Part shown: positions 1 through 23,034 of the stretch, piece after piece
Numbering within the stretch: position 1 is the first letter of the stretch
How the letters are laid out: each line of letters starts with the position of its first letter
Assembly (NCBI GenBank): GCA_017308215.1
Contig: JAFKFQ010000446.1
Span: 1-32,834 of the forward strand
Direction of reading: 5' to 3'
DNA length: 32,834 nt
Source: a bacterium
GTDB taxonomy: Bacteria; Planctomycetota; Planctomycetia; Gemmatales; Gemmataceae
The notes under the pieces: generated by a model
Told to the model about the DNA's origin: nothing
The model's database searches: none
The model's input: only the letters and a program-made list of their open reading frames with translations
Translations under genes and position numbers: made by a program

Positions 1-603
1 GGCCGCGACGCCCCGCTTCCGCAGCCGGTCGGCGAGGAGCTTCCGCCCCTTCGCCAGCCGGCTCGAAATCGTGCCCTCCGGCACCCCGAGCCGCCCGGCC
101 GCGTCCCGCCGGCTGACGCCGTCGAGCTCGCACAGCACCACCGCGGCGCGGACGTGGTCCGGCAGGGCGGCGACCTCCTCGTCGAGCGCCCGGAGGGCGT
201 CGGCGTCGGGGGGCTGGTACGACTCGGCGGCGCGATCGGGGACGGTGGGCACGGGCGCCTCGCGGGCGCGGCGGCGGGCGGACACGGCGCGGGCCTCCCG
301 GGCGACCCGGACGGCCACCCCGTACATCCACCCGCGGACACCCTCGGCCGGGTTCACGTCGGCGGCGCGGCGGGCGAGCACCAGGAACGCCGCCTGGAAG
401 GCGTCGTCCGCGAGGTGGGAATCGCCGGTGACGCGCCGGCAGACGCCGAGGACCATCGGCCCGACACGGCGGACCAGTTCCGCGAAGGCGTCGGGGTCGC
501 GGGTGCGGGCGAACCGGGCGACGAGCCGGCCGTCGGCCGGCGGGTCGGGGTCGGCGGCCCGGGCGAGGCGGCCGAGGGCGGCGGACAGGGCGGGGCGAGA
601 CAT
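1..603 (-). CDS. ECF sigma factor with propeller architecture, 3'-truncated by window edge
   Basis: This is the N-terminal 201 codons of another array member; the gene runs off the left edge. Sigma region 2 lies at about residues 30-105, with the DDAFQAAFLVLARRA and GWMYGVAVRVARE motifs. The region 4 helix-turn-helix is at about 140-195, with CELDGVSRRDAAGRLGVPEGTISSRLAKGRK. The start is ATG at 603, preceded by GGAGG. The whole segment aligns without any indel to the sigma part of the gene at 19235-21052 (constant offset 20449). By hand comparison roughly nine in ten bases are identical, and the similarity continues into the 5' flank. The transmembrane helix and propeller are inferred from that paralogue and are not visible here. 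The array therefore continues beyond the window. Confidence 0.9.
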   Translation of the reverse strand, partial: MSRPALSAALGRLARAADPDPPADGRLVARFARTRDPDAFAELVRRVGPMVLGVCRRVTGDSHLADDAFQAAFLVLARRAADVNPAEGVRGWMYGVAVRVAREARAVSARRRAREAPVPTVPDRAAESYQPPDADALRALDEEVAALPDHVRAAVVLCELDGVSRRDAAGRLGVPEGTISSRLAKGRKLLADRLRKRGVAA

Positions 604-660
604 CGGAACCTCCGCGGCGGGCCACCGCGGCCCGCCACCCCACTTGGGGCACAGCGGCCG

Positions 661-668
661 GGCGCGTC
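661..668 (-). promoter_or_regulatory. Array upstream block GACGCGCC (for the gene at 1-603)
   Basis: The plus strand reads GGCGCGTC here, so GACGCGCC in the direction of the genes. It lies 57 nt upstream of the ATG at 603. The same octamer recurs at 54-61 nt before most other array genes. A role in promoter recognition or autoregulation is inference. Confidence 0.45.
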
Positions 669-682
669 GCGGGAAAAGCGAA

Positions 683-710
683 AACCGGTCGGGCAGGCAC
701 CCGTCCGGTT
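683..710 (-). terminator. Terminator hairpin of the gene at 732-2534
   Basis: Two 11-base arms (683-693 and 700-710, one central T:T mismatch) flank a 6-nt loop just after the stop at 732. In minus-strand direction a short T-rich run follows (TTCGCTTTT). This fits a rho-independent terminator. Confidence 0.55.
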
Positions 711-731
711 CAGAATCGCATGCGGGTCGCG

Positions 732-2534
732 TTACCGCCAGTCGATCTGGCTGGGGAGCCGCCACGCCCACTCGGGGGTCGTGGTTTCGGACAGGATCGT
801 CCGCGGGTTCCGCCCGTCCGCGTCGCAGAGGATCACGCGGCTGAACCGCTCCTGGTCGAACGTCTTTCCGCTCGGAGCCCCTTCCAGAATGTAGGCCACG
901 CGCCGCCCGTCCGGGGACCAGCAGAAGAAGTGTATCGCGGCGCCCGGCGGTGCATCGGCCAGGTGCGTAGCCGCACCCGTCGCCACGTCGATCGAGACCA
1001 GCCGGATCGTCTGCGGTCGGATCGCCCGCGGTGTGGTCTCTGCCGGCACGTTGACGCGGGGGAGCACCAAGGCCATGCCCGCGGAGGGCCGGCTGGCCTG
1101 GACCGTGGTCTCCGCCGACCCGTCGACACGGGCGAGTACCCGCCGCCCGTCCGGGGAGAACCGGGCACAGTAACTCGTAACGCCTCCCGTCAGCGACTTG
1201 TGCGCCGTTCCGTCCCGCCTCATCATCCACAACCACTGGCCGTATCTCGCCTCGTTCTGGACGGTCAGGAAGTACCGGCCGTCCCGGGACCAGTCGGCCA
1301 GGAGGTGGTCTTCTGGCAGTTTGAGTGGAGTCTGCGCCCGGGTCTCTACGTTCATGATGACGTGACGGGCACTCCCCTGCCCGCCGATGAAGGGGAGAAC
1401 ATGGAACGCCGTCACGGCAAGCTCGGTCCCGTCCCTGGACCAGATGACATGCCCCCAGCCGGGGAATTCGGTGGTGCCGCCCTCGGGGCCGTCCGCCGCG
1501 AGTGACCGGACATTGACCCGGAACCCGGGCCGGTTGTCGGGCGTGTCCTTCCCTTGCACCACCGCCACCCTCTTCCCGTTCGGGGTCACCGCGAGCCACT
1601 GAGGGAACCAGACGTCTCTTCCGGTATGAAGACTCCGCTCGTTGCGCCCGTCCGGGTCGATGCCGACGAGTTCCCGACCCCGGCTGAACACGATGCGGCC
1701 GGGTCTCGCCGCTTCTTCTGGAAGGGGGGCGGCCGCACGCGCGGCGGGCGCGACCGTGGTCGCGGGTGCGGGCGAAAGCAAGCCGGTCGCCAACGCAATT
1801 GTGACGACCGCGAGGAAGCCCGGTGCGAGGATGCGGGGGACCATGGCGCGGCAGGCTCCGTGAGCAAGAGCGACGACCACGGGCGAAGCGGGCGCGCCGG
1901 AACCGAGTGCGGAGGCGGCGGACGCGAGCGCCGGTGGAACGGCGACCGGGGCGAGCCGCGCCGGGGCGAACCCACGGGCGGCGAGCCGCGCCGCCAGGCG
2001 CTTGCGGGCGAGGGCAAGCCGGCTACTGAGCGTGCCTTCCGCGATACCGAGTTCCCGCGCCGCGGCGGCGCGCGGGCGGCCTTCGAGCTCGCACAGCACG
2101 ACCGCCGCGCGAAAGATGCTCGGCAGTCGCTCGACCTCCTCGACCACCGCCCGCGCCGCGTCCGGGTCAAACGGCTCCGCCGTTCGCTCGGGCACGTCGG
2201 GGACAGCCGCGACCAGGGCCTCGCGGCCGCGCCGCTCGCACGCCTTTCGCGCGGTCCGCAGCGCGACGCCGTACAGCCACGCCGCCACCCGGTCGCGCGG
2301 GCCGAGCCGGTCGGCCTTCCGCGCGAGCACCAGAAACGCTGCCTGAAAAGCGTCGTCGGCGTCGTGGGCGTGGCGGGTGATGCGGCGGCACACGGCCAGC
2401 ACCATCGGCCCGTGCCGGCGGACGAGCTCGGCGAACGTGTCTCCGTCCCGCGCCGCGGCGAAGCGGGCAAGTAACTCGGTGTCGGTGGTGGGGTCGGCCA
2501 GCCGGGCGAGGCGGGCGGACAGGGCGGCGGACAT
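732..2534 (-). CDS. ECF sigma factor fused to TM helix and PD40-like propeller
   Basis: The 600-residue protein has sigma region 2 at about residues 20-92 (DDAFQAAFLVLARKA, AAWLYGVALRTARKA) and region 4 at about 130-185 (CELEGRPRAAAARELGIAEGTLSSRL). An Ala/Pro linker follows, then one hydrophobic helix at about 235-254. From residue 278 on there are blades with WSRDGTELAV, DWSRDGRYFLT, FSPDGRRVLA and WSPDGRRVAY motifs, ending in IDWR. The expected topology is sigma inside and propeller in the periplasm, which would make it a one-protein sensor and transcription factor; that is inference. No separate anti-sigma gene is adjacent. The start is ATG after GGAGG with a 5-nt spacer. Its last third has an insertion of about 25 residues between two blades that the closest paralogues lack. 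Confidence 0.93.
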   Translation of the reverse strand: MSAALSARLARLADPTTDTELLARFAAARDGDTFAELVRRHGPMVLAVCRRITRHAHDADDAFQAAFLVLARKADRLGPRDRVAAWLYGVALRTARKACERRGREALVAAVPDVPERTAEPFDPDAARAVVEEVERLPSIFRAAVVLCELEGRPRAAAARELGIAEGTLSSRLALARKRLAARLAARGFAPARLAPVAVPPALASAASALGSGAPASPVVVALAHGACRAMVPRILAPGFLAVVTIALATGLLSPAPATTVAPAARAAAPLPEEAARPGRIVFSRGRELVGIDPDGRNERSLHTGRDVWFPQWLAVTPNGKRVAVVQGKDTPDNRPGFRVNVRSLAADGPEGGTTEFPGWGHVIWSRDGTELAVTAFHVLPFIGGQGSARHVIMNVETRAQTPLKLPEDHLLADWSRDGRYFLTVQNEARYGQWLWMMRRDGTAHKSLTGGVTSYCARFSPDGRRVLARVDGSAETTVQASRPSAGMALVLPRVNVPAETTPRAIRPQTIRLVSIDVATGAATHLADAPPGAAIHFFCWSPDGRRVAYILEGAPSGKTFDQERFSRVILCDADGRNPRTILSETTTPEWAWRLPSQIDWR

Positions 2535-2588
2535 CCGAACCTCCGCGGGCGGCGACGGCCGCCCACCAGTAACCCCGCCCGGCGGTCC

Positions 2589-2596
2589 GGCGCGTC
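2589..2596 (-). promoter_or_regulatory. Array upstream block GACGCGCC (for the gene at 732-2534)
   Basis: The octamer lies 54 nt upstream of the ATG at 2534 and is followed on the plus strand by ACGGAAAA, as in several other array spacers. Confidence 0.45.
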
Positions 2597-2617
2597 ACGG
2601 AAAACGAAGAAATCGGG

Positions 2618-3655
2618 CTACCGCCAATCGAGTTCGCCGTAGGCCCAGTCGGCGATGAAGTTCCCCCGCCCGGACGCGAGTGTCTTCGGGTTCCGCCCGT
2701 CGGCGCCGGCGACGATCAGGTGCGTCTGCGTTTCGGGCGTCGTGTCGAGTTGGTCCTTGGCGAGAATGTGCGGGTAGAGGCGGAGCCAGGTGTAGGCAAC
2801 CCGCTTACCGTCCGGGGACCACGCCACTCCGATCGCCCGGGCGTTTTCGGGAAAGCCGGCCAGCGGCTCGCGCTTCCCGGTCGCCACGTCGAGCCGGTAC
2901 GGGCGGTGGCTCAGCTCCCACTTGTGGGCGTCCTTCTTCACCGGGTCACCGTCGGTAAACAGGACCGCCTTCCCGTCCGGGGAGAACCGCCCGACGATCG
3001 TACCGGCGGTGACCTGCAAGTCGGCGAGCGGCCGAACCTCGGCCGCCCCCGCCGCCGTCAGCCCGAGCTTCGCGGCCCGCCCCTTGCCCGTCCGGTGCTC
3101 GACCAGGAACGTCTTCCCGTCACGGGTCACGTCGAGCACCCGGCACCCGACCGGCAGGGCGAGCGGGGTCGTCTCGCCGGTGTCGGGGTCGAGCCGCACG
3201 GTGTCGTAGGCAGTCCGCCAGTGAGACGTGGCGATCCCCAGGATGATGCTCTTCCCGTCGGGCATCCACAGCGGTTCGAGGGCGAACCCGGAAACGTCGC
3301 GCACCTCGCGCAAGGCGAGTTCCCGGTCCACGCGGTTGAAAAGGATGCGCGCGGGCTCGGGCCGGGCAAGGACCGCCGGGCGGACGAGCAGCCGCACCTC
3401 GTCGTCCTTGCAGACGGTGAGCAGGAGTTGTCGGCCGTCCGGAGACACGGCGGCGCGGCCGCCGACCCACTTGATCCGCGCCTCTTTGAACTCGCCGCGC
3501 TTCGTGCCGTCCGGGTCGAACGCCGCGCACCCCAACGGCCGGGTGGCGACGATCACCCCCGGGCCGGCGGGCGCCCGAGGGGCTTTCTGTGCATCGGCCG
3601 TGGAGGCAACGGCGAGGGCCGCGAGCACGACCAGTGCGGGGGTGCGAAGCGACAT
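2618..3655 (-). CDS. Secreted PD40-like propeller protein without sigma domain
   Basis: This 345-residue protein is the odd member of the array. It has no sigma regions and starts with a signal peptide: a hydrophobic stretch at residues 5-17, then ASTADAQ as a probable cleavage region. Propeller blades follow, with FDPDGTKRGEF, SPDGRQLLLT, MPDGKSIILG, FSPDGKAVLF and WSPDGKRVAYTW motifs, and the same C-terminal LDWR as the sigma-fused members. ATG at 3655 has a GGAG eight bases upstream. The longer open frame upstream to 4387 only shadows the next gene. It starts 50 nt after the stop of the gene at 3706-5508 and its spacer lacks both the GACGCGCC block and a terminator, so co-transcription with that gene is likely. 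It might act as a soluble periplasmic partner or decoy for the membrane-bound paralogues (inference). Confidence 0.85.
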   Translation of the reverse strand: MSLRTPALVVLAALAVASTADAQKAPRAPAGPGVIVATRPLGCAAFDPDGTKRGEFKEARIKWVGGRAAVSPDGRQLLLTVCKDDEVRLLVRPAVLARPEPARILFNRVDRELALREVRDVSGFALEPLWMPDGKSIILGIATSHWRTAYDTVRLDPDTGETTPLALPVGCRVLDVTRDGKTFLVEHRTGKGRAAKLGLTAAGAAEVRPLADLQVTAGTIVGRFSPDGKAVLFTDGDPVKKDAHKWELSHRPYRLDVATGKREPLAGFPENARAIGVAWSPDGKRVAYTWLRLYPHILAKDQLDTTPETQTHLIVAGADGRNPKTLASGRGNFIADWAYGELDWR

Positions 3656-3705
3656 GCGACGGCTCCGGGGGCGGCGGCCCGCCCCATCGTCGCACGCGGG
3701 TCGCG

Positions 3706-5508
3706 CTACCGCCAGTCCACGCCGTCGAGTGCGACCACGCTCTCGGACGCGCCGCGCTCCGTCAGGATCGTGAGTTGGTTGCCGCCGTCGGCGTCGCAGA
3801 CGGTGAGGTGACTCTGCGTCTCCCGGGCGGCGCCGTCCACCGCCGGCGGGTGGCGCTCCCGCCAGGTGTAGGCGATCCGCTTCCCGTCCGGCGACCAGCA
3901 GAAGCCCATGTAGTCGACGTTCAGCGGCACGTCCTTGAGCGGGGTCGCCGTCGAGGTCGCGGCGTCGATCACCACGAGTTGAACCCGCAGGAGTCGCGTG
4001 TCCAGGCCCAGGTTGTCCAGCCGGTCGTTCTCCTTCTCGTCCTCGTCGGGGGCGACGAGGCGCGCCGCCAGCACCCGCGTGCCGTCGGGCGAGAACTTCG
4101 ACGGGTGCCAGGACGTGTTCGCCGCGACCAGCCGCTTGCGCGGCGTGCCGTCGCGGTTCATCACCCAGACCCCGGCGGGCGGTCGGGGCTCGCCGAACCG
4201 GAACTCGGTGGTGAGGAAGAACCGGCCGTCGCGGGACCAGTCGGCGATGACGTGGTTGGCGGGGAGCTTGACCGGGGTGCGGGCCTTCGTCGCCGGCGTG
4301 TACAGGAAGTGGGTGATCGTCGTGTCCTTCGGGGTGGCGCCCTCGGCGACCGCGCTCACGGCTAGCTGCGTGCCGTCCCCGGACCACGCGACAGTGTGCT
4401 CACTCTCCCCCTCGCCCTCCACAGCCGTCAGGCGACCGCCTTCACCGAATTCGTGGATGAACACCCAGACCCCCGGGTGCTTGTCGTAGATGCCGTCGAC
4501 GGAGGACTTCGGACCCGCGACCCGCTTCCCGTCCGGCGAAACGACGAACATCCTCGTGCGATACCGCAGTGTCTCGGGCAGCACGGTCGCCTCGTTCTTC
4601 CCGGTCGGGTCGAGCGCGATAAGTCCCCAGTTGCGTGAGACGACGATCCGGTTCGGCCCGACGGGCGCCGGCGCGGCCTTCGGCGGGTCGGCCGCTACCC
4701 GAACGGCCGGAGGAGCGGGCGCCGGCGCGGGCGGCCCGGCGGACAGTCCGACGGCCAGCGCCGCCGACGCGACTACCGTCAGGACGAGCGACGCGAGCGG
4801 GATGCGATGGGAGATCATGGCGCGGCCGACTCCGTGTGCGAGGGCGGCGACCGCGGGCGAGACCCGTGCGCCGGAACCGAGGGCGGAGGCCGCCGATGCC
4901 AGCGCCGGCGGGACGGCGATCGGGGCGAGCAGTGCCGGGCCGAACCCGCGGGCCGCCAGCCGTTCGGCCAGCCGCTTCCGGGCCGCCCCGAGACGGCTGC
5001 TGAGCGTCCCTTCGGCGATGCCCAACTCTCGCGCCGCCGCGGCCCGCGACCGACCTTCGAGCTCGCACAGCACGACGGCGGCCCGGTACCACGGCGGCAG
5101 CCGCTCGACCTCCTCGACTACCGCCCGGGCCGCGTCCGGGTCGACCGGCTCCGCCGTCCGTTCCGGTACGTCCGGCACCGCCGCGACGAGGGTTTCCCGC
5201 TCCCGCCGCCGCCAGCCGCGGGCCGCGGCCTTCCGCGCCGCCCGCACCGCGACCCCGTACAGCCACCCGCCCACCGGGTCACCCGAACCAAGCCGGTCGG
5301 CCTTGCGGGCGAGTACCAGGAAGGCCGCCTGGAAGGCGTCCTCGGCGTCGTGGGCGTGGGCGGTGACGCGGCGGCAGACGGCCAGCACCATCGGCCCGTG
5401 GCGGCGCACCAGCTCGGCGAACGCCGCCCCGTCCCGCGCCGCGGCGAAGCGGGCGAGCAGGTCGGCGTCGGGCGTCGGGAGGACGAGTTTCGTCAGGGCG
5501 GCGAGAAT
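3706..5508 (-). CDS. ECF sigma factor with TM helix and propeller; probable ATT start
   Basis: The protein has 600 residues if it starts at ATT 5508: region 2 about 18-92, region 4 about 130-187, transmembrane helix about 236-255, then a propeller ending in VDWR. An in-frame TGA lies 14 codons upstream of the ATT, and no ATG, GTG or TTG lies between them. The first in-frame GTG (5409) sits inside the conserved ELVRRHGP motif and would remove 33 residues that every paralogue keeps. ATT is seven bases after a perfect GGAGG, exactly where the paralogues have ATG. A gene finder would probably call the shorter GTG form. The propeller contains an acidic insertion with DEDEKEND between blades. Its sigma half and 5' flank most resemble the gene at 5637-7424. 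Confidence 0.88.
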   Translation of the reverse strand: MLAALTKLVLPTPDADLLARFAAARDGAAFAELVRRHGPMVLAVCRRVTAHAHDAEDAFQAAFLVLARKADRLGSGDPVGGWLYGVAVRAARKAAARGWRRRERETLVAAVPDVPERTAEPVDPDAARAVVEEVERLPPWYRAAVVLCELEGRSRAAAARELGIAEGTLSSRLGAARKRLAERLAARGFGPALLAPIAVPPALASAASALGSGARVSPAVAALAHGVGRAMISHRIPLASLVLTVVASAALAVGLSAGPPAPAPAPPAVRVAADPPKAAPAPVGPNRIVVSRNWGLIALDPTGKNEATVLPETLRYRTRMFVVSPDGKRVAGPKSSVDGIYDKHPGVWVFIHEFGEGGRLTAVEGEGESEHTVAWSGDGTQLAVSAVAEGATPKDTTITHFLYTPATKARTPVKLPANHVIADWSRDGRFFLTTEFRFGEPRPPAGVWVMNRDGTPRKRLVAANTSWHPSKFSPDGTRVLAARLVAPDEDEKENDRLDNLGLDTRLLRVQLVVIDAATSTATPLKDVPLNVDYMGFCWSPDGKRIAYTWRERHPPAVDGAARETQSHLTVCDADGGNQLTILTERGASESVVALDGVDWR

Positions 5509-5636: not shown

Positions 5637-7424
5637 TCACCGCCAGTCGATCCCCCACATGAGATCATCGTTGGTCCACTGCCCACTGACGGACAGAATC
5701 GACCGCGGGTTCTGCCCGTCGGCGTCGGCGACGACGAGCCAGTAGTGGCGCACCGGGCCGTTCGGCCCCCGCCCCTCGGGGAGGGCGGGGCTGACCGGGT
5801 GGTACGACTTGACGTAGGCGACCTGCCGCCCGTCCGGGGACCAACAGCACCAGGGGGCGCCGCCACCCGCGCGCGGCCACCCAGGCAGCCGAGTCGCCTG
5901 GCCCGTCCCCAGATCGAGTACCTCCAGCGTCCCCGGCACGGGCGCCGCGCCCCGGCGGACCCAGGCCAGCGCCCGAGTCCCGTCCGGGCTGAACCGGGCG
6001 TGCCGGCACCAGTCGTCCGCCCCGGTCAGCAGCCGGGCGCCGGTCCCGTCCCGGTTCACCAACCCGAGCCGGGTCACCTGACCGTTGCGGTTGTCGCCGC
6101 GGACGTTGACCGTGTGGGCGGTGAGGAACCGCCGCCCGTCGCGGGACCAGTCGATGACGACGTGGTTGTCCGGGAGCTTCAACTCGGTCCGGGCCTTGGT
6201 CCCGGTGTGGACCAGGAAGTGCCGGCTGTGGGGGCCGGTGGGCCGGTCCTCGTCCCCGGTGGCCACGAGGAGTTCCAGCCCCGTGGGCGACCAGACCGCG
6301 GTGGTCGGGTGCTCGAACACGCCCAGCTCGACGGGTTCGTGCTCCGCCCTCAGCCCGCGGACGAAGAGCCGGTAGAACCCGGCCCGGACGAGCCTGCCGT
6401 CTTCCGTGTCGGGGATGAAGACCGCGGGATTCAGTTCCACCACCGCCACCTGGTGCCCGTTCGGGGACACGGCGAACGGCGACACGAAATGGCCCGGCCG
6501 GGCCGGAAGGATGGTAGCGAGGTTCCGCCCGTCCGGGTCGACGCCGACGAGTTCGCCCTTCCGCATCACCACGATCCGGTTCGGCCCGACCGCCGCCCTC
6601 GGGGCAGGCCCGGCGGCCCGCACGGCCGGCGGCGCGGGCGGCCCGGAGGGCAAACCGACGGTCAGCGCCGCCGACGCGATTACCGTCAGGACGAGTGACG
6701 CGACCGGGATGCGACAGGGGATCATGGCGCGACCGACTCCGTGTGCGAGGGCAGCGACCGCGGGCGAGACCGGGGCGCCGGAACCGAGGACGGAGGCCGC
6801 GGCGGTCAGCCCAAGCGGGACGGCGACGCCGACGAGCGCCGCCAGCGCGGCCGGGCCGTACCCGCGGGCACGCAGTCGCGTCGCCAGTCGTTTCCGCGCC
6901 GCGGCGAGTCGGCTGCTGAGCGTCCCCTCGGCGACGCCGAGCTCCCGTGCCGCCGCGGCGCGCGGCCGGCCTTCCAGTTCGCACAGCACCACCGCGCCGC
7001 GGAGCACGTCGGGCAGCCGCCCGACCTCCTCGATGACAGCGCGGGCCGCCTCCGGGTCAACCGGCTCCGCCAGCCGTGCCGGTACGCCGTCGAGCTCGCC
7101 GCCGACGGCCTCGCGGCCGCGCCTCCGCCACGCCCGGCCCGCGGCCTTGCGGGCCACCCGCCCCGCCACCCCGACCAGCCAACCGCCCACCGAGTCGGCC
7201 GGGCTGAGCCGGTCGGCCTTGCGGGCGAGGACGACGAAGACCGCCTGGAAGGCGTCCTCGGCGTCCTGCGCGTGGCGGGTGAGCCGGCGGCACACGGCGA
7301 GCACGGCAGGCCCGTGGCGGCGGACGAGCTCGGCGAACGCCGCCCCGTCCCGCTCGGCGGCGAAGCGGACGAGCAGGTCCGCGTCGGTCGGCGGGGGAGC
7401 GAGCTTCGTCAGGACGGCGAGAAT
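5637..7424 (-). CDS. ECF sigma factor with TM helix and propeller; probable ATT start
   Basis: The protein has 595 residues from ATT 7424. Region 2 lies at about 18-95 (DAFQAVFVVLARKA, with GWLVGVAGRVARK in place of the usual GWLYGVAVR), region 4 at about 130-187, the transmembrane helix at about 240-258, and a propeller ends in IDWR. As in its neighbour, an in-frame TGA lies 14 codons upstream and no ATG, GTG or TTG intervenes. The next GTG (7304) would delete 40 conserved residues. The bases around the ATT (GGAGG, seven bases, ATT CTC GCC) match those of the gene at 3706-5508. Only 63 nt separate it from the stop of the gene at 7488-9266, with no terminator or GACGCGCC block, so those two may form one transcript. 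Confidence 0.87.
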   Translation of the reverse strand: MLAVLTKLAPPPTDADLLVRFAAERDGAAFAELVRRHGPAVLAVCRRLTRHAQDAEDAFQAVFVVLARKADRLSPADSVGGWLVGVAGRVARKAAGRAWRRRGREAVGGELDGVPARLAEPVDPEAARAVIEEVGRLPDVLRGAVVLCELEGRPRAAAARELGVAEGTLSSRLAAARKRLATRLRARGYGPAALAALVGVAVPLGLTAAASVLGSGAPVSPAVAALAHGVGRAMIPCRIPVASLVLTVIASAALTVGLPSGPPAPPAVRAAGPAPRAAVGPNRIVVMRKGELVGVDPDGRNLATILPARPGHFVSPFAVSPNGHQVAVVELNPAVFIPDTEDGRLVRAGFYRLFVRGLRAEHEPVELGVFEHPTTAVWSPTGLELLVATGDEDRPTGPHSRHFLVHTGTKARTELKLPDNHVVIDWSRDGRRFLTAHTVNVRGDNRNGQVTRLGLVNRDGTGARLLTGADDWCRHARFSPDGTRALAWVRRGAAPVPGTLEVLDLGTGQATRLPGWPRAGGGAPWCCWSPDGRQVAYVKSYHPVSPALPEGRGPNGPVRHYWLVVADADGQNPRSILSVSGQWTNDDLMWGIDWR

Positions 7425-7487: not shown

Positions 7488-9266
7488 CTACCGCCAGTCG
7501 ATCGTCCCGAACGACCAGTTCGCCGCGGTGGACCGGTTGGAGGCGATCTCCGTCGCGTTCCGCCCGTCCGGGTCGCACACGATCGCCCGCAGCTCGATCT
7601 TCTGGTTCGGGTCCAGGTGGCCCGGCTTCGACTCGACCCTGTTCGACTGCCAGGTGTACGCGACCCGTCGGCCGTCCGGCGACCAGCAGCACCCGGCCAG
7701 GTGCCCGCCGGGCGGGATGCCTGCCACCGGCGTCGAGGTGCCGGTGACCAGGTCGAGCACCATCAGCGTGTCGGGGAGCCCGGCGGCGCCCGGCCGGTGG
7801 ACGTCGTAGAGCACGCGCCGGCCGTCGGGCGAGAACCGCCCGCCGCCGGCCTCCATCTTCGCCGGCGCGACGATCTCGCGCACCGTTTTCCCGTGCCGGT
7901 CGAGAATCCAGGTGCGAACTGCCTCGGGACCGTTCGGGCCGTAGGTGAACTGGGCCGTGAGGAACCGCTTCCCGTCGCGCGACCAGTCGGTGAGGTGGTG
8001 ACCGGCCGGGATCGGCAGCCGCGTGCGGCGGCCGGTCGCCACGTCCACGGCCTCGTGGCGGAGTTCGGCCGTTGCCAGCGCCTCGGCCTTCGGATCGGCG
8101 GTCGTCACCGCCAGGCGGGTGCCGTCGCCGGCCCAGAGGAAATCGAGGATCGCCCGCCCGTCGCCGAGGTCGGTCGCCGGGCCGGTGCCGTCGGCCGCGA
8201 ACACGAGCAGCTTGAACTCGCGGCGGTGCCGGTCGTCGGTGTTCCGCGCGTAGGCGACCGTCTTCCCGTCCGGCGAGAGCGCGCACGAGGTCGGGTGCGG
8301 GTCGCGGCAGTCCGGGTGCGTCACGACCCGGCTGTTGCGGCCGTCCGGGTCGCAGAGGTAGAAGTGGTCGCCCTGGCAGAAGAACAGCTTGTTCGGCCCC
8401 GCCACCGGCGCCGCAGCCCGCGGCGCCACGGGCCGCGGGACCACGGCCCGCGGCATAGGGACGGGCGGGGACGGCGATTCGGGTTGCGGGGCGGCGAGCG
8501 CGGCGGCCGCGGCCAGCGCGGCGAGAACGGGGGCGATCGAGAGTCGGGACACGTCCATGATCGGTAGCGCTCCACGGGCCAGGGTGCGGACCGCCGGGGG
8601 AACCCGGTCGGTGGAGGCGAGGAGGGCCGCCGCCGCGAGCCGGCGCGGGACGACGACCGGCGCCAGCGCCACGAGCGCGGCCGGGCCGAACCCGCGGGCG
8701 GTCAGACGGCGGGCGAGGTGCCTGCGCGCCGCGGCGAGCCGGCTGCTGAGCGTCCCCTCGGCGATCCCGAGCTCCCGCGCCGCGGCGGCGCGGGACCGGC
8801 CTTCGAGTTCGCACAGCACCACCGCCGCCCGGTACGCCGCCGACAGCCGCCCGACCTCCTCCAGCACCGCCCGCACCGCGTCCGGGTCGAACGGTTCCGT
8901 CGGTCGGTCCGGTACGTCGGGCACGTCGGCGGCCAGCGTTTCGTGGGCGCCGCGTCGCCACGCCCGGGCGGCGGCCTTGCGGGCGGTGCGGACCGCCGCG
9001 CCGAACAGCCACGACCCGAGCGGCACGCCCGGGCCGAGCCGGTCGGCCTTGCGGGCGAGGACAACGAAGACCGCCTGGAAGGCGTCCTCGGCGTCGTGGG
9101 CGTGACCGGTCAGGCGCCGACAGACCGCGAGTACGGCGGGACCGTGGCGGCGGACCAGTTCGGCGAACGCGCCGTCGTCCCGCTCGCGCGAATACCGCGC
9201 GAGCAGATCGGCGTCGGCCGGCGGGGTGAGCCGCCGGGCCAGTGCGGCGAGGGGTGCGGGTGCCAT
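7488..9266 (-). CDS. ECF sigma factor with TM helix and PD40-like propeller
   Basis: The 592-residue protein has region 2 at about 20-97 (DAFQAVFVVLARKA, SWLFGAAVRTARKA), region 4 at about 130-190, a short Ala-rich transmembrane helix at about 242-259, and a propeller from about 285. Blades carry LSPDGKTVAY, DWSRDGKRFLTA, FSPDGRRVLY and WSPDGRRVAYTW, and the chain ends in IDWR. The linker before the helix is more divergent than elsewhere (LLASTDRVPPAVRTLARG). The ATG start sits at the array-typical position. The first residues RYSRERD are shared with the gene at 9621-11669, so the sigma halves of these two are close relatives. Confidence 0.92.
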   Translation of the reverse strand: MAPAPLAALARRLTPPADADLLARYSRERDDGAFAELVRRHGPAVLAVCRRLTGHAHDAEDAFQAVFVVLARKADRLGPGVPLGSWLFGAAVRTARKAAARAWRRGAHETLAADVPDVPDRPTEPFDPDAVRAVLEEVGRLSAAYRAAVVLCELEGRSRAAAARELGIAEGTLSSRLAAARRHLARRLTARGFGPAALVALAPVVVPRRLAAAALLASTDRVPPAVRTLARGALPIMDVSRLSIAPVLAALAAAAALAAPQPESPSPPVPMPRAVVPRPVAPRAAAPVAGPNKLFFCQGDHFYLCDPDGRNSRVVTHPDCRDPHPTSCALSPDGKTVAYARNTDDRHRREFKLLVFAADGTGPATDLGDGRAILDFLWAGDGTRLAVTTADPKAEALATAELRHEAVDVATGRRTRLPIPAGHHLTDWSRDGKRFLTAQFTYGPNGPEAVRTWILDRHGKTVREIVAPAKMEAGGGRFSPDGRRVLYDVHRPGAAGLPDTLMVLDLVTGTSTPVAGIPPGGHLAGCCWSPDGRRVAYTWQSNRVESKPGHLDPNQKIELRAIVCDPDGRNATEIASNRSTAANWSFGTIDWR

Positions 9267-15409: not shown

Positions 15410-17224
15410 TCAGCGCCAGTCCGGCCCGGCAATGGTGACGAGTCCGGGGCCGTCCCCCTTCGCGGTAGCAATCATGCGAGCGTTCCGCCGGTCGGCGTCG
15501 CACACCACCAGGAACGACTCGAACTCGACGCCGGGGAGGGGTGCCGCTTCGCGGGGCTGCTTCCCCCGCCACGCATAGGCAACCCGTCGGCCGTCCGGCG
15601 ACCAGCAGTAGCCTTGAAGTTCCGAGTCCGGCGGGTAGTCGACGAGGGGGGCGACCGCCCCGGTCGTCAGGTCGAGAACGACGGGAACCCGGATCACCCG
15701 CTTGCCGTCCGCGTCCGGCAACAGGTACTGTTCGCACAGCACCCGTTTGCCGTCCGGCGACAGCCGGCCGTTCAGGAGCAGGTCGGTCGGGGCGTTCGCC
15801 ACCTTGTGCTCGGTCCCGTCCCGGTTCAGGAGCCGGAGGCGGAAGCCCGCCCGCCCGCCGCCCTCCCGGGGCATCACGACTTGCTGAGTGACGAAGAGCC
15901 GGCCGTCGTGCGACCAGTCGGTGAGGACGTGGTCGGCCGGAATCGGGAGAGGGGCGACCGCCTTCGTGGCCACGGCCACCAGCTTGTGAACCCCTGTCAG
16001 ATCCTTCCCCTTGCTCGTGCAGCTGGTGGTGGCGATTCGGGTTCCATCCCCGGACCAGGCGAACGTCACGAACGGCGAGCCCCTGACGCCGAGGTCGGTC
16101 GGCGGGTCGTTGCCGGCCGTCTTGCGGACGAACAGCCGGAACTCCGGCGCGGGGAGGGGAACAATCGGGTCGCCGGGCATGGGGAGTCGCGACGCATCGG
16201 TCTGCACGAGGTAGGCGACCATCGACCCGTCCGGGGAGAGCCGCGGTGACGGGAGCGGGCTGTGCTCGTCGTTGTCCTCCGTAACCGGAACGGCGTTCTT
16301 CCCGTCCGGATCGATCATCGTGAGCCGGCCGTTCAGGTAGAACACGATCCGGTTCGGCCCCGTCGGTAGCGGCGCAGCCTTCGGCGCCGGCGGCTGCGCG
16401 ACCGCGACGCGAACCGGCGGGGCGGGCGGGTCGGCGGGGGCGGGCTGAGACCCGAGCAGACCGGTCACCAGCGCCGCCGACGCGACCACGGCGACGGCGG
16501 ACGGGATCAGTTTCTTGAGGGTCATGGCGCGACCGACTCCGTGGGCGAGGGCGGCGACCGCGGCCGGGGCCGGGGCGCCGGTGGCGAGGGCGGAAGTCGC
16601 GGACGCCAGCGCGGGCGGGACACCCGCCCCGGCGAGGGCGGCGAGGACGGCAGGGGCGAACCCGCGGGCGGTCAGCCGGGCGGCGAGCTGCTCCCGGGCG
16701 GCGGCGAGCCGGCTGCTGAGCGTCCCCTCGGCGATGCCGAGTTCCCGCGCCACCGCGGCGCGGGATCGGCCCTCCAGCTCGCACAGCACCACCGCCGCCC
16801 GGTACGCGACCGACAGCCGCCCCACCTCGTCGAGTACGGCGCGAGCCGCGTCCGGGTCGACCGGCTCCGCCGCCCGGGCCGGCACGTCCGGCACGTCCCC
16901 CGTCGCCTCGCGCCTTCGCCACGGCCGCTCCGCAGCCCGCCGCGCGACCCGCACCGCGACCCCGTACAACCACGCGCCCAGCGGGTTACCGGGGCGGACT
17001 TCCCTGGCCCGGCGGGCGAGCACGAGGAAGACCGCCTGGAAGGCGTCTTCCGCGTCGTGGGTGTGGCGGGTGAGACGGCGACACACGGCCAGGACGGCCG
17101 GGCCGTGGCGGCGGACGAGGTCGGCGAACGCGGCGTCGTCGCGGCCGGCGACGAACCGGCCGAGCAACTCGGCGTCGGTCGGCGCCACGACGAGCGGGCC
17201 GAGCCGGGCGGCGAGGCGGGACAT
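15410..17224 (-). CDS. ECF sigma factor with TM helix and PD40-like propeller
   Basis: The 604-residue protein has region 2 at about 20-98, region 4 at about 130-186 (with AAVARELGIAEGTLSSRL), the transmembrane helix at about 239-258, and a propeller from about 285 ending in PDWR. Its sigma half is almost the same as that of the gene at 17331-19133; the first codons and 5' flank share 112 consecutive identical bases. The propeller is closer to other members, with WSGDGTRIATTS, DWSHDGRLFVTQ, LSPDGKRVLCEQ and WSPDGRRVAYAW blades. The start is ATG 17224 after GGAGG. Confidence 0.92.
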   Translation of the reverse strand: MSRLAARLGPLVVAPTDAELLGRFVAGRDDAAFADLVRRHGPAVLAVCRRLTRHTHDAEDAFQAVFLVLARRAREVRPGNPLGAWLYGVAVRVARRAAERPWRRREATGDVPDVPARAAEPVDPDAARAVLDEVGRLSVAYRAAVVLCELEGRSRAAVARELGIAEGTLSSRLAAAREQLAARLTARGFAPAVLAALAGAGVPPALASATSALATGAPAPAAVAALAHGVGRAMTLKKLIPSAVAVVASAALVTGLLGSQPAPADPPAPPVRVAVAQPPAPKAAPLPTGPNRIVFYLNGRLTMIDPDGKNAVPVTEDNDEHSPLPSPRLSPDGSMVAYLVQTDASRLPMPGDPIVPLPAPEFRLFVRKTAGNDPPTDLGVRGSPFVTFAWSGDGTRIATTSCTSKGKDLTGVHKLVAVATKAVAPLPIPADHVLTDWSHDGRLFVTQQVVMPREGGGRAGFRLRLLNRDGTEHKVANAPTDLLLNGRLSPDGKRVLCEQYLLPDADGKRVIRVPVVLDLTTGAVAPLVDYPPDSELQGYCWSPDGRRVAYAWRGKQPREAAPLPGVEFESFLVVCDADRRNARMIATAKGDGPGLVTIAGPDWR

Positions 17225-17253
17225 CCGGGAACCTCCGGGCGGCCACCGCGGCC
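17142..17253. repeat. 112-bp direct repeat, copy 1 (copy 2 at 19051-19162)
   Basis: Positions 17142-17253 and 19051-19162 are identical base for base (offset 1909). They cover the first codons and ribosome-binding region of two neighbouring array genes. This points to recent duplication or gene conversion. Confidence 0.85.
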
Positions 17254-17283
17254 GCCCACCCGATTTTTCCGGGCGGGCGGACC

Positions 17284-17330: not shown

Positions 17331-19133
17331 TCAGCGCCAGTCCGGGATGCCGAGGGTGAGGATCCACTGGCCCTGGCCCTTCTCGGTCAGGACCGTGCGC
17401 GGGTTCCGCCCGTCCGGGTCGGCCACGATCAGATGCGACTCGGTCTCCTTCATCAGCCGGTCTTCCTGCGTCCCCTCGTGGATCTGGCGCCAAGTGTAGG
17501 CGATCTTCGTCCCGTCCGGGGACCAGCAGAACCCCTGGAGCTCGGCGTTGAGCGGGATCCCGTCGACCGGCGCCCGCTTGCCGGTGGCCGTGTCCAGCAG
17601 CACGAGCGTCCGCCGCCCGTTGGGCAGGGCGTTCCTCGTCGGCCGCGGCACGTCGCAGCACAGCACCCGCTTCCCGTCCGGCGACGGGAGCCCGAACCCG
17701 GTCAGCGTCTTCTCGTCGGTCAGCGCCTTGTGCTCGGTCCCGTCCACGTTCATCAGGTGGAGGCGGATCCGCGGCGCTTCTTCGGTACCGCCCAGACTGG
17801 TCGTCAGGAGCTTGTCGCCGGGAACCCAGCCGGTGATCACGTGGTCCGACGGGAGCTTCAGCGTGGTCGTCTTCCCCGTGCCGGCGTCCACCAGCAGGTG
17901 CGTCGCCTCGGGCGGGCCGTTCCCCCTATTGGCGACCGCGCACGCGGCCAACTTCGTGCCGTCCGGCGACCAGGCGTACACCTCGCACTCGGCCTCGGTC
18001 TCGACCACCGGCCCCTTCCCGCCGACCGGGCGGATGACCAGCTTTCGCCGCTGCTGCTGCCCGGGCGGGGTGTCCTCGATCTTCCCGACGAGCTGGAGGA
18101 ACGCGACCCGCGTCCCGTCCGGGGAGAGCTTGGCGTCGAGGGACGGGAGGGACGCGGGCGACCCCTCGAAGGCGACCGTCTCGTTCTTCCCGTCCGGGTC
18201 GAGGAGGACGAGCTTGCGGTTCTTGTAGACGAGAATCTTGTTCGGCCCCTTCGGGAGCGGCCGCGGCGCGGCCTTCGCCGCGGGAGGCTGAACCGCGACG
18301 GAGGCCGCGGGGATCGCCGAGGCGGCGGGAATCGGCGGCGCGTCAGCGGCCGGCGGCGCCGCGAAGAGGCCGGCGGCGAGCGCCGCTGACGCGACCGCGG
18401 CGAGCGGGATGAGGAGCAGTTTCGGACGGATCATGGCGTGACCGACTCCGCGTGCGAGGGCGGCGACCGCGGCGGGAGCCGGGGCGCCGGAACCGAGAGC
18501 GGAGGTCGCGGACGCCAGCCCGGGCGGGACAGCGACGCCGGCGAAGATCGCCAGCGCGGCTGGGGCGAGTCCGCGGGCGGCGAGGCGGTCGGCGAGCTGC
18601 TTGCGGGCGGCGGCGAGGCGGCTGCTGAGCGTCCCCTCGGCGATCCCGAGCTCCCGCGCCGCCGCCGCCCGCGACCGCCCCTCCAACTCGCACAGCACCA
18701 CCGCCGCCCGGTACGCCGCCGACAGCTGCCCCACCTCGTCGAGTACGGCGCGGGCCGCGTCCGGGTCGAACGGGTCCGCCGCTCGGGCCGGCACGTCCGG
18801 CACGTCCCCCGTCGCCTCGCGCCGCCGCCACGGCCGCTCCGCCGCCCGCCGCGAGACGCGCACCGCCACCCCGTACAACCACGCCCCGAGCGGGTCGCCG
18901 GGGCGGACCGACCCGGCGCGGCGGGCGAGCACGAGGAACGCCGACTGGAAGGCGTCTTCCGCGTCGTGGGTGTGGCGGGTGACGCTCCGGCACACCGCGA
19001 GGACCGCGGGGCCGTGGCGGCGGACGAGTTCGGCGAACGCCGCCTCGTCACGGCCGGCGACGAACCGGCCGAGCAACTCGGCGTCGGTCGGCGCCACGAC
19101 GAGCGGGCCGAGCCGGGCGGCGAGGCGGGACAT
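17331..19133 (-). CDS. ECF sigma factor with TM helix and PD40-like propeller
   Basis: The 600-residue protein has region 2 at about 20-98 (DAFQSAFLVLARRA), region 4 at about 130-186, the transmembrane helix at about 237-256, and a propeller ending in PDWR. The sigma half pairs with the gene at 15410-17224. The propeller half pairs instead with the genes at 19235-21052 and 21184-23034: all three share KGPNKIL or KGPSKIL at the first strand, WSPDGTKIAYTWRQ or close variants, and the KETES or KETEW segment. It is therefore a mosaic. In one blade, GWVPGDKLLTTS replaces the usual DWSRDGRFLT. Confidence 0.92.
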   Translation of the reverse strand: MSRLAARLGPLVVAPTDAELLGRFVAGRDEAAFAELVRRHGPAVLAVCRSVTRHTHDAEDAFQSAFLVLARRAGSVRPGDPLGAWLYGVAVRVSRRAAERPWRRREATGDVPDVPARAADPFDPDAARAVLDEVGQLSAAYRAAVVLCELEGRSRAAAARELGIAEGTLSSRLAAARKQLADRLAARGLAPAALAIFAGVAVPPGLASATSALGSGAPAPAAVAALARGVGHAMIRPKLLLIPLAAVASAALAAGLFAAPPAADAPPIPAASAIPAASVAVQPPAAKAAPRPLPKGPNKILVYKNRKLVLLDPDGKNETVAFEGSPASLPSLDAKLSPDGTRVAFLQLVGKIEDTPPGQQQRRKLVIRPVGGKGPVVETEAECEVYAWSPDGTKLAACAVANRGNGPPEATHLLVDAGTGKTTTLKLPSDHVITGWVPGDKLLTTSLGGTEEAPRIRLHLMNVDGTEHKALTDEKTLTGFGLPSPDGKRVLCCDVPRPTRNALPNGRRTLVLLDTATGKRAPVDGIPLNAELQGFCWSPDGTKIAYTWRQIHEGTQEDRLMKETESHLIVADPDGRNPRTVLTEKGQGQWILTLGIPDWR

Positions 19134-19199: not shown

Positions 19200-19234
19200 G
19201 GTCGGATTTCCGGAATTCTCGCCGTCCGGCCGCG

Positions 19235-21052
19235 CTACCGCCAGTCCGGGGCGCCGAGGGTGAAGATCCACTGGCCCGGGCCCTTCGCGGTCAGGACCGT
19301 GCGCGGGTTCCGGCCGTCCGCGTCGGCGACCACCAGACGCCACTCCGTTTCCTTCCGGCCTCGCTCGTCGTCCGTGCCCGGGTGGATCTGGCGCCAGGTG
19401 TAGGCGATCCTCGTCCCGTCTGGGGACCAGCACACGCCCTGGAGGTCGCCGTCCGGGGCGATGTCCGCGACCGGCGTGCCGCGGCCGGTCGCCACGTCGA
19501 TCAGTACGAGGGCGTACCGCCCCGAGTCGACCTTCCCGCCGACCCGCGTGAGGGCGGGGCGCAGGCCGAGCAGCCGCGCCCCGTCCGGGGACGGGACGCT
19601 GGAGACGACGACGTCCGTCCCGTCGGTCACTGCCTTCGACTCGGTGCCGTCGCGGTTCATCAGGTAGACGCGCCCCTTCGGCTCGGTGGTCGTGAACGAC
19701 AACTGCGTCGTCGCGAACCGCCCGTCGGCCAGCCAGCCGGTGACGACGTGTTCCTCCGGCAGCCGAACCCGCGTCGCCTTCCCGGTCTGCGCGTCCACGA
19801 TGCGGTGGTCGAACCCCGCCCACTCATGCATGCCCGGACGCCCGGCGGCCCGACCAGCGACCAGTTCGGACCCGTCGGCCGACCAGTGCACCCTCTCGCA
19901 GTCGATCCCGAGGTCCACCGGCCCCGCCTTCGCACCGAGGGTGTGGATGAAGAGCGACCGCCGCGGCACCTGCTCCCCCGGGGCCGAGGCGACCGAGCAG
20001 ACGACCGCCACGCGCTTGCCGTCGGGCGACAGCTTGGCGTCGAACGCGAACCCGGTTTTCGGGTCGTGCGAGGCGAGGGGCGTCTCGTCCTTCCCGTCCG
20101 GGTCGATGAGGACGAGCGTGCGGTTCTTGTTGATCAGGATCTTGCTCGGCCCCTTCGGCACCGGCCGGGCCGCGGCCGGCTGCACCGCGGTGACGGTGAC
20201 AGCGGCCGGCGGCGCGGGCGGCGCATCGGAAGCGGGCGGTGCGGCAAGCAGGCTGGCGGCGAACACCGCCGCGGCGACCGCGGCGACGGCCAGCGGGGCG
20301 AGCTTGAGTTTCTGGACGACCATGGCGCGGACCACTCCGTGCGCGAGGGCGGCGACTGTGGCCGAGGCCGGTTCGCCGGAAGCGAGGGCGGAGGCCGCGG
20401 CCGACAGCCGCGGGGGGACGGCCGCCGGCGCCAGTGCCGCCAGCCCGAGGGCCGCGACGCCCCGCTTCCGCAGCCGGTCGGTGAGGAGCTTTCGCCCCTT
20501 CGCCAGCCGGCTCGAAATCGTGCCCTCCGGCACCCCGAGCCGCCCGGCCGCGTCCCGCCGGCTGACGCCGTCGAGTTCGCACAGCACGACCGCTGCCCGG
20601 ATGTGGTCCGGCAGGGCGGCAACCTCCTCGTCGAGCGCCCGCAGGGCGTCGGCGTCGGGGGGCTGGTGCGACTCGGCGGGGCGGTCGGGGAGCGTGGGCA
20701 CGGGCGCCTCGCGGGCGCGGCGGCGGGCAGACACGGCGCGGGCCTCCCGGGCGACCCGGACGGCCACCCCGTACATCCACCCCCGGATCTCGTCCGGCCG
20801 CTCCACCCGCCCCGCCCGGCGGGCGAGGACCAGGAACGCCGCCTGGAAGGCGTCGTCCGCGAGGTGGGAATCACCGGTGACGCGCCGGCACACGCCGAGC
20901 ACCATCGGGCCGACGCGGCGGACGAGTTCGGCGAAGGCGTCGGGGTCGCGGGTGCGGGCGAACCGAGCGACGAGCCGGCCGTCGGCCGGGGGGTCGTGGT
21001 CGGCGGCCCGGGCGAGCCGGCCCAGGGACGCGGACAGTGCGGGGCGGGACAT
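19235..21052 (-). CDS. ECF sigma factor with TM helix and PD40-like propeller
   Basis: The 605-residue protein has region 2 at about 30-105 (HLADDAFQAAFLVLARRA, GWMYGVAVRVAREA), region 4 at about 140-195 (CELDGVSRRDAAGRLGVPEGTISSRLAKGRK), the transmembrane helix at about 250-270, and a propeller ending in PDWR. The sigma half belongs with the truncated gene at 1-603 and differs clearly from the other members. The propeller belongs with the genes on either side (17331-19133, 21184-23034). The start is ATG after GGAGG with a 5-nt spacer. Confidence 0.93.
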   Translation of the reverse strand: MSRPALSASLGRLARAADHDPPADGRLVARFARTRDPDAFAELVRRVGPMVLGVCRRVTGDSHLADDAFQAAFLVLARRAGRVERPDEIRGWMYGVAVRVAREARAVSARRRAREAPVPTLPDRPAESHQPPDADALRALDEEVAALPDHIRAAVVLCELDGVSRRDAAGRLGVPEGTISSRLAKGRKLLTDRLRKRGVAALGLAALAPAAVPPRLSAAASALASGEPASATVAALAHGVVRAMVVQKLKLAPLAVAAVAAAVFAASLLAAPPASDAPPAPPAAVTVTAVQPAAARPVPKGPSKILINKNRTLVLIDPDGKDETPLASHDPKTGFAFDAKLSPDGKRVAVVCSVASAPGEQVPRRSLFIHTLGAKAGPVDLGIDCERVHWSADGSELVAGRAAGRPGMHEWAGFDHRIVDAQTGKATRVRLPEEHVVTGWLADGRFATTQLSFTTTEPKGRVYLMNRDGTESKAVTDGTDVVVSSVPSPDGARLLGLRPALTRVGGKVDSGRYALVLIDVATGRGTPVADIAPDGDLQGVCWSPDGTRIAYTWRQIHPGTDDERGRKETEWRLVVADADGRNPRTVLTAKGPGQWIFTLGAPDWR

Positions 21053-21109
21053 CGGAACCTCCGCGGCGGGCCACCGCGGCCCGCCACCCCACCTGGGGCG
21101 GCGCCGCCG

Positions 21110-21117
21110 GGCGCGTC
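21110..21117 (-). promoter_or_regulatory. Array upstream block GACGCGCC (for the gene at 19235-21052)
   Basis: The octamer lies 57 nt upstream of the ATG at 21052, the same distance as for its sigma-half twin at 1-603. Confidence 0.45.
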
Positions 21118-21133
21118 GCGGGAAAATCGAAGA

Positions 21134-21161
21134 AAGCCGGCCGGGTTCGCCCGGCCGGCTT
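21134..21161 (-). terminator. Terminator hairpin of the gene at 21184-23034
   Basis: A perfect 12-bp stem (21134-21145 with 21150-21161) encloses a TTCG-type tetraloop and is followed in minus-strand direction by TCTTCGATTTTCC. It lies 22 nt after the stop. Confidence 0.65.
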
Positions 21162-21183
21162 CATCCTCGCACGCCCGGCGGTG

Positions 21184-23034
21184 TCACCGCCAGTCCGGGG
21201 CGCCGAGAGTGAAGGCCCACTGGCTCGCGCCGGTCGTGGTCAGGACGGTGCGGGCGTTCCGCCCGTCCGCGTCGGCGACCACCAGGCGCGACTCCGTTTC
21301 CTTCCGGGCGCGCTCGTCGTCCGTGCCCGGGTGGACCTGGCGCCAGGTGTAGGCGATCTTCGTCCCGTCCGGGGACCAGCACACACCCTGGAGGTCGCCG
21401 CCGGACGGTACCCCCCCGACCGGCGTGACGCGGCCGGTCGCCACGTCGATCAGCACGAGTTCGTCCCGCTCAGACTCGGCCTGCCCGTCGACGATCTTGA
21501 GGGTGGGGCGCAGGCCGAACAGCCGCTTCCCGTCCGGAGACGGGACGCTGGACGCGACGACGTCCGTCCCGTCGGTCACGACCTTCGACTCGGTGCCGTC
21601 GCGGTTCATCAGGTAGATGCGGGCCTTCGGCACGGCCGGCGTGCCGGACAGCTTGGTCGTCACGAACCGGCCGTCGGCCAGCCAGCCGGAGACGACGTGG
21701 CCGGCCGGTAGCCGGACCGGCGTCGTCTTCCCGGTCCGCGGGTCCACGGCCGTGTGGGCGAACACCGGGGCGGTGCGGTCGCCAGTGACCCGGCCGGCGA
21801 CCAGTTCGGACCCGTCGGCCGACCAGAACACCGTCTCGCACTCGACCCCGGTGTCCGTACCCGGCCCCGGCTCGCCGAGCGCGCGGACGAATAGCCGGTG
21901 CTCCCCCTGCTGGGCGGCCGGGGGCGCGCCCCGCTTCTGGACCTCGACGACGAGGGCGACGCGCTTCCCGTCCGGCGACAGTTTGGCCTCGGCCCCCGGC
22001 CCGAAGGTGTCCTTCTCACTCACGCGCGTCTCGTTCTTCCCGTCCGGGTCGATGAGAACGAGCTGACCGTTCTTGGCGATCAGGATTTTGTTCGGCCCCT
22101 TCGGCACCGGCCGCGGCGCAGCCTTCGGCGCCGGCGGCTGCGCGGTGACGAGCGCGACGGGGACCGGCGGCGCGGGCGGCGCATCGGGGGCGGGTGGCGC
22201 CGCGAGCAGGCCGGCGGCGAGCGCGGCAGACGCGGCGACCACTGCGATTGAGAGCAGCGTGGGCTTGAGCTTGTGAAGGAACATGGCGCGCAAGACTCCG
22301 TTCGACAGGGCCGCGACCGCGGCCGGTGCGTGCTCCGGGGCCAGCGCCGATGCGACCGCCCGCGCCGGCAAGTCAGCCGGGACCGCGGCGTGGGCCGCGT
22401 CCCCGAGTGCGACCGCCAGCCCGCCCGCACCGAGCGTCACGCCGCGCGCCGCCAGCCGTGCGGCGAGGCGCTGGCGCGCGACCGCCAGCCGGCTGTACAC
22501 AGTCCCAACCGGCACCCCGAGCGCGGCCGCCACCTCGACCTGGGGTTCGTCGCGGAGGTCGCACCGCACCAGCAGCGTGCGGTACTTCTCCGGCAGCGTC
22601 GCAAGTTCGGCGTCGATCACGGCGGCGAGGTCGGGGTCGGGGGTGGCAACGCTACTCGCGGCGTCGGGGAGGTGCGAGCACGGGGTTTCGCGGGCGGAGC
22701 GGCGGGCGGCCATCGCGCGGGCCTCGCGGGCGGTGCGGACCGCCACCCCGTACAGCCACCCGCCCACCGCCTCGCGCGGCACCACCGCCGCGGCCTTGCG
22801 GGCGAGGACGACGAAGACCGCCTGGAAGGCGTCCTCGGCGTCCTGGTGGTGGCCGGTGACCCGGCGGCAGACGGCGAACACCATCGGCCCGAACCGCTCG
22901 ACGAGCGCGGCAAACGCCGCCCCGTCGCGGGCGGCGACGAAGGCGGCGAGCAGGGCGCCGTCGGAGCGCGGGTCGGCGGGGGCGACGGCCCGGCGGGCGC
23001 GGGCAACGACGGCGGACAGCCCGGGTAGGGGCAT
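21184..23034 (-). CDS. ECF sigma factor with TM helix and propeller; first array gene
   Basis: The 616-residue protein has region 2 at about 30-108 (HHQDAEDAFQAVFVVLARKA, GWLYGVAVRTAREA). Region 4 at about 138-195 is distinct, with LPEKYRTLLVRCDL and QVEVAAALGVPVGTVYSRL in place of the array-typical CELEGRSRAAAARELG. The transmembrane helix is at about 258-279 and the propeller ends in PDWR. The propeller closely resembles the gene at 19235-21052 despite the different sigma half. ATG 23034 is chosen by alignment; the longer frame upstream shadows the divergent gene at 23194. As the 5'-most member it shares a divergent intergenic region and lacks the GACGCGCC block. Confidence 0.92.
   Translation of the reverse strand: MPLPGLSAVVARARRAVAPADPRSDGALLAAFVAARDGAAFAALVERFGPMVFAVCRRVTGHHQDAEDAFQAVFVVLARKAAAVVPREAVGGWLYGVAVRTAREARAMAARRSARETPCSHLPDAASSVATPDPDLAAVIDAELATLPEKYRTLLVRCDLRDEPQVEVAAALGVPVGTVYSRLAVARQRLAARLAARGVTLGAGGLAVALGDAAHAAVPADLPARAVASALAPEHAPAAVAALSNGVLRAMFLHKLKPTLLSIAVVAASAALAAGLLAAPPAPDAPPAPPVPVALVTAQPPAPKAAPRPVPKGPNKILIAKNGQLVLIDPDGKNETRVSEKDTFGPGAEAKLSPDGKRVALVVEVQKRGAPPAAQQGEHRLFVRALGEPGPGTDTGVECETVFWSADGSELVAGRVTGDRTAPVFAHTAVDPRTGKTTPVRLPAGHVVSGWLADGRFVTTKLSGTPAVPKARIYLMNRDGTESKVVTDGTDVVASSVPSPDGKRLFGLRPTLKIVDGQAESERDELVLIDVATGRVTPVGGVPSGGDLQGVCWSPDGTKIAYTWRQVHPGTDDERARKETESRLVVADADGRNARTVLTTTGASQWAFTLGAPDWR

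Follow-up and report, generated by a model that had tools for sequence, protein, structure and literature searches.

How does a planctomycete come to carry, side by side on one strand, a dozen genes that join an ECF sigma factor to a beta-propeller, and what might such a row of proteins do? The window, i.e., the whole stretch of 32,834 nucleotides that was analysed, is the entire contig C175 of a draft genome (9.0 Mb in 766 contigs, 85% complete), so that local assembly faults are possible within the array; the nearest named relatives of this genome are Gemmataceae. Open reading frames with a coding-type GC3, combined with Pfam scans, confirmed a head-to-tail tandem run on the minus strand at positions 1-23034 (GC content ~74%), as a first, sequence-only reading of this DNA had described it. 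Where that reading counted eleven copies, there are twelve loci with a sigma domain: B, D, E, F, H, J, K, L, M and N (ten loci) are intact, I is split, and A is truncated at the contig edge. It also gave every locus sigma regions 2 and 4, one helix and a PD40 propeller, which holds for the intact copies but not for two array members without a sigma domain, C, an exported propeller, and G, a propeller remnant. The loci are as follows:

A, 1-603, minus strand: last gene of the array, of which the contig edge leaves the sigma domain (Sigma70_r2 match); completed to 612 aa through contig C671 (L039 1-1385) by an exact, unique 149-bp overlap and an open frame.
B, 732-2534, minus strand: intact sigma-helix-propeller gene, 600 aa (Pfam, alignment A1, hydropathy).
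C, 2618-3655, minus strand: signal peptide and propeller, 345 aa (PD40; no sigma match).
D, 3706-5508, minus strand: intact, 600 aa, with a probable ATT start after GGAGG (Pfam, start codons).
E, 5637-7424, minus strand: intact, 595 aa, also with a probable ATT start after GGAGG (Pfam, start codons).
F, 7488-9266, minus strand: intact, 592 aa (Pfam, tree, synteny).
G, 9397-9528, minus strand: propeller-only frame, remnant of a propeller C-terminus (profile match, E 5e-9).
H, 9621-11669, minus strand: intact, 682 aa (Pfam, alignment).
I, 11774-13496, minus strand: whole split locus.
I, propeller half, 11774-12811, minus strand: frame with membrane helix and propeller; an ATG at 12811 is possible (PD40, hydropathy).
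I, sigma half, 12861-13496, minus strand: free sigma frame, 211 aa (translation, deletion alignment).
J, 13599-15302, minus strand: intact, 567 aa, with the most divergent propeller (Pfam, tree).
K, 15410-17224, minus strand: intact, 604 aa (Pfam, domain identities).
L, 17331-19133, minus strand: intact, 600 aa, structure predicted (Sigma70_r2, domain identities, model).
M, 19235-21052, minus strand: intact, 605 aa (Pfam, domain identities).
N, 21184-23034, minus strand: opens the array; 616 aa, with a sigma domain orthologous to that of G004_5889 (Pfam, tree).

The array had been thought to continue past the left edge. Gene A does extend onto contig C671, whose first 149 bases are identical to the window end; genome-wide this stretch occurs at 100% at these two contig ends only, the next best match being gene M with 97%. 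C671 completes gene A within 1.2 kb, but the array stops there, and what follows is a gene in convergent orientation, which encodes DUF116 and polyprenyl synthetase domains, and then a calcineurin-like phosphoesterase. In G004, a complete genome in a single contig, the same two flank genes (93% and 78% identical) adjoin a single sigma-propeller gene, the propeller of which is the orthologue of the F propeller by tree and synteny. Hence, the array ends with A, and G004 has one copy at this place. In G004 the counterpart of the window's right flank is found ~195 kb from there; therefore the locus has been rearranged, and its history is not one of simple expansion in place. A frameshift-broken sigma-propeller gene related to A and M was also found on a separate short contig (G000:C705 2113-3907, L044), and within the window a classical WD40-repeat frame (PF00400; 30253-31317, minus strand) adjoins a PpiC/SurA-type isomerase gene (31330-32736). 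When 81 Gemmataceae genomes, many of them drafts, were compared by the best 16 candidates of each, the next longest tandem runs among the matches listed were of four genes (G002) and two (G001, G072), which bears out the exceptional run length first proposed. Several dozen other sigma-plus-helix proteins with different C-terminal parts are scattered through the genome, and the array is therefore a local expansion within a large known family.

Each of the nine intact sigma proteins scanned with Pfam gave Sigma70_r2 and Sigma70_r4_2 matches above cut-off, a profile search also matched Sigma70_r2 in L, I and A, and the sigma70-ECF profile TIGR02937 was above cut-off in L, M, N and H. The proteins have sigma-70 regions 2 and 4 only, regions 1 and 3 being absent, as in ECF factors. 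PF07638 (Sigma70_ECF) had no match in the window and was discarded as the family of these domains, which PF04542 and PF08281 detect instead. Mycobacterial SigE is the nearest sequence match of the sigma half, and a putative core-binding motif, DAEDAFQ, is kept and aligns with DAEDLTQ of SigE. An end-to-end alignment of the ten intact copies (alignment A1) has an invariant C-terminal DWR that is common to most relatives. PD40 was matched in most copies, and a TolB-like signal was obtained in H and C. In the alignment H carries ~100 extra residues inside the propeller, at about residues 400-510, for which Pfam gave no family.

In every intact copy the best hydrophobic 19-mer lies between residues 216 and 278, and the basic residues before it are at least as many as those after it; on account of this hydropathy and charge bias, the sigma domain is predicted to be inside and the propeller outside, with one membrane crossing. 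The structure prediction that the sequence-only reading had called for was made for L, and in the AlphaFold model (mean pLDDT 76) the helices of sigma2 and sigma4 are present, the linker and the membrane helix have low confidence, and the propeller, which is modelled with confidence, matches TolB (Foldseek E 1e-13; Z ~26 over ~250 residues; ~24% identity). The proposed order of ECF sigma factor, one helix and extracytoplasmic propeller is thus supported by the topology prediction and by the TolB-like fold. The likeness to TolB is one of beta-propeller fold; unlike TolB, the array proteins have no TolB N-terminal domain and attach the propeller to a sigma factor, and the full-length TolB equivalog TIGR02800 gave 30-39 bits against a cut-off of 343, only the propeller being aligned.

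Propeller extensions of planctomycete ECFs were known, as the first reading had said. ECF57 and other planctomycete ECFs have WD40-like C-terminal extensions and many young Gemmataceae paralogues (PMC8999054, PMC8567305, the latter citing Jogler 2012 and Wiegand 2020), and this literature counts paralogization and domain shuffling among the general forces at work. The array proteins are of an ECF57-like kind, with sigma regions 2 and 4, a PD40/WD40-like C-terminal extension of propeller fold, a conserved cysteine in each sigma domain (C49 in sigma2 and C148 in sigma4, both invariant in alignment A1), many young Gemmataceae paralogues and no anti-sigma gene nearby; this likeness is one of described features, with the cysteines matched by domain. 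What sets the array apart from ECF57 is its twelve tandem copies, their exchanged halves and the membrane helix between sigma and propeller. Fusion of an ECF factor to a membrane anchor is known from IutY of Pseudomonas putida (ECF243) and SCO4117 of Streptomyces (ECF52), proteolytic activation having been shown for the former and proposed for ECF52 (PMC8999054). These resemble the array proteins in combining a sigma domain, a membrane helix and an outside part in one protein; they differ in having a recognisable anti-sigma region, whereas the outside part of the array proteins is a propeller and Pfam found no anti-sigma domain, zf-HC2 or of another family, between sigma4 and the helix in the frames scanned. 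The claim that the array has no anti-sigma genes also stood, since Pfam and further profile scans found none in the frames scanned; genome-wide there are 6 zf-HC2 matches versus 133 for Sigma70_r2 (E <= 0.001).

The explanation that we favour, and consider probable for the locus as a whole, is a tandem family of membrane-anchored ECF factors that was duplicated and recombined, in which many sensors feed few outputs and the propeller controls the sigma domain. The sigma domain would be held in the cytoplasm by the single predicted membrane crossing, with the TolB-like propeller outside; binding of a ligand or protein partner to the propeller would then control the access of sigma to RNA polymerase, sigma being freed by cleavage of the anchor or permitted to act by a conformational change. 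Genes of family M50 intramembrane proteases are present in the genome, which says little because these proteases are near universal. Another way in which such a protein might work is that the tethered sigma acts in place without cleavage, the propeller being a protein-binding scaffold with conformational control as proposed for ECF57, and for WD40 ECFs protein interaction and a cysteine-linked change have indeed been put forward (PMC8999054). The invariant cysteines of sigma2 and sigma4 would suit this mode of action, but the sigma4 cysteine is also present in mycobacterial SigE and is therefore no special mark, and with a membrane helix between the halves an outside propeller cannot touch sigma directly, so that we regard action in place as possible but not as the better guess.

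Some of the copies are damaged. The linker of locus I is 23 nt shorter than that of K, L and E (deletion region at window positions 12861-12950, minus strand), which splits the locus into its free sigma frame and its anchored propeller frame; because in L the stretch deleted from I is flanked by two GGCGTC repeats, the gap appears to stem from slippage and not from a read error. In G001, too, a propeller with a signal peptide but no sigma domain, like C, lies beside sigma-propeller genes (L144 12287-13336). Could such a free propeller be a partner or a decoy of the sensors? A split copy, a remnant and a copy that has no sigma domain, in a long array known from one genome only, would also be expected if the locus were an unstable by-product of duplication, made of redundant, short-lived copies with little function. 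Among orthologues and recent copies the dN/dS was about 0.2-0.35 in the sigma half and 0.55-0.9 in the propeller, and with a GC3 near 92% the absolute values are rough, the contrast being one between sigma and propeller within the same genes. The propeller values are compatible with relaxed constraint as well, but the sigma values, the 10 of 12 frames that are intact and the retention of sigma motifs, C-terminal DWR and ribosome sites speak against decay, which we consider improbable. Sigma domains are under purifying selection and propellers much less so, in line with the diversifying sensor family that the first reading had suggested.

The favoured explanation further requires that copies were recombined, and here the two halves of the proteins give conflicting answers. 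Identity was 92% in sigma and 31% in the propeller for A/M, 90% and 38% for K/L, 57% and 51% for L/M, and 51% and 66% for M/N. The sigma tree joins K to L, A to M and N to G004_5889, whereas the propeller tree groups M, N and G004_5889, K with I, A with C and D with G004_5447; the A propeller is nearest to that of C (support 100/99). The trees disagree at well-supported nodes, and AU tests, in which the constrained groups were taken from the tree of the other half, reject congruence both ways (p from 4.5e-4 to 6e-71). At the DNA level A/M and K/L mostly have 80-98% identity over the leader and on to about nucleotide 700, a short way ahead of the membrane helix, after which identity drops to ~50%; K/L are also 93% alike in the end of the preceding gene. 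Synonymous distances within single pairs depend on the domain, as recombination predicts: dS in sigma versus propeller was 0.21 versus 0.66 for A/M, 0.27 versus 0.65 for K/L and 0.52 versus 0.26 for M/N. The four-gene array of G002 gave the same kind of conflict (C168a/b, sigma 55% and propeller 72%; C168c/d, sigma 68% and propeller 31%), with AU p values of 6e-6 and 1e-8 and rejection of a common sigma clade for C168 a, b and c. By sequence, the array grew by tandem duplication; recombination between its copies, with breaks close to where the sigma domain ends, has placed several propellers on a single sigma type and joined a single propeller type to several sigma types.

Chimeric joins of near-identical repeats could mimic such swaps, and the assembly, a 766-contig draft with A/M and K/L sigma blocks ~90% alike in DNA and with a contig break in such a block, invites the suspicion. 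These blocks nevertheless differ at many sites (M has 97% identity over the 149-bp overlap, and the sigma dS of A/M and K/L is 0.21-0.27), the mixed make-up of M recurs in named relatives and an independent genome shows swaps, which makes an artefact very unlikely. Divergence by point mutation alone, with a slow sigma and a fast propeller and no exchange of halves, would account for propellers that outpace sigma even between orthologues (N/G004_5889, sigma 88% and propeller 60%), but it is hardly credible given that M/N, and likewise L/M, depart from it, the propeller being more alike than the sigma domain in M/N, that congruence is rejected in both directions, that synonymous distances differ by domain within a pair and that the pattern is repeated in G002.

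The blocks shared by the copies include the leaders, of which one serves as an example:

604-731, minus strand: shared leader upstream of A, with the element TTTTCCCGCGACGCGCC at 661-677 and a GC hairpin directly before GGAGG.

GACGCGC occurs in 10 of 13 leaders, about 40-66 bases upstream of the start; the longer element TTTTCCSGCGACGCGCC has four genomic sites at one mismatch or fewer, all within the array, and the 17-base leader element is array-specific genome-wide. At two mismatches the short leader motif was no commoner than chance, and it was rejected as an enriched signal. A GC hairpin, mostly with a CGG loop, lies a few bases before the Shine-Dalgarno sequence in 11 of 13 leaders (e.g., 604-648 and 17225-17268, minus strand). 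Across five distinct stems both sides of four of the seven pairs vary while all pairs are kept, a count made on hand-picked gapless 19-mers for a five-base loop, a choice that favours structure; the covariance model of the leader contained no base pairs, the hairpin arms being misaligned in it. A like hairpin precedes 6 of 19 homologues, whereas among control stretches taken from these loci the share is 6%. Neither D nor E could begin with ATG, GTG or TTG and still preserve the first part of region 2; both probably start at an ATT that follows GGAGG by seven bases (5508 and 7424, minus strand). Scanning for sigma-70 promoters yielded a single site in 20 kb, so that we claim no promoter. Terminator-like sites in three gaps (9 versus 5.5 in shuffled sequence, sd 2.6) were little above expectation and were set aside as a signal.

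With regard to the outputs, ELGIAEGTLSSRL is exact in the region 4 recognition helix of eight of the nine class I sigmas, A and M sharing another version and N having a third. Because eight of these helices are identical, many sensors would probably feed few promoter classes, with the reservation that a few differences between recognition helices can be enough for different promoters to be read. A more far-reaching idea, which we put forward only tentatively, is that the shared blocks, i.e., the end of a gene followed by the next leader and sigma domain, provide homology for repeated exchange of propellers, so that recombination would drive a repertoire of sensors.

In the open-access literature searched, we met no description of a tandem ECF array whose members have swapped their sigma and sensor halves. 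The conflicting histories of sigma and propeller are the new part of these results; the architecture and the regulatory idea were already known. The locus also offers natural test material, with A/M and K/L as the same sigma on different sensors, M/N as related sensors on different sigmas, I as a free sigma frame and C as a free propeller. In Gemmataceae a great many ECF sigma factors bear fused extensions, while anti-sigma genes are few, and this locus shows a route by which such factors multiply, namely tandem growth and exchange of halves at a fixed boundary, which suggests that new sensors are wired to the same few gene-control outputs. If the idea of a recombination-driven repertoire is true, new outside sensors would keep arising, all of them feeding a few sigma outputs that they have in common, and the array would be a bacterial counterpart of a receptor-diversifying locus.
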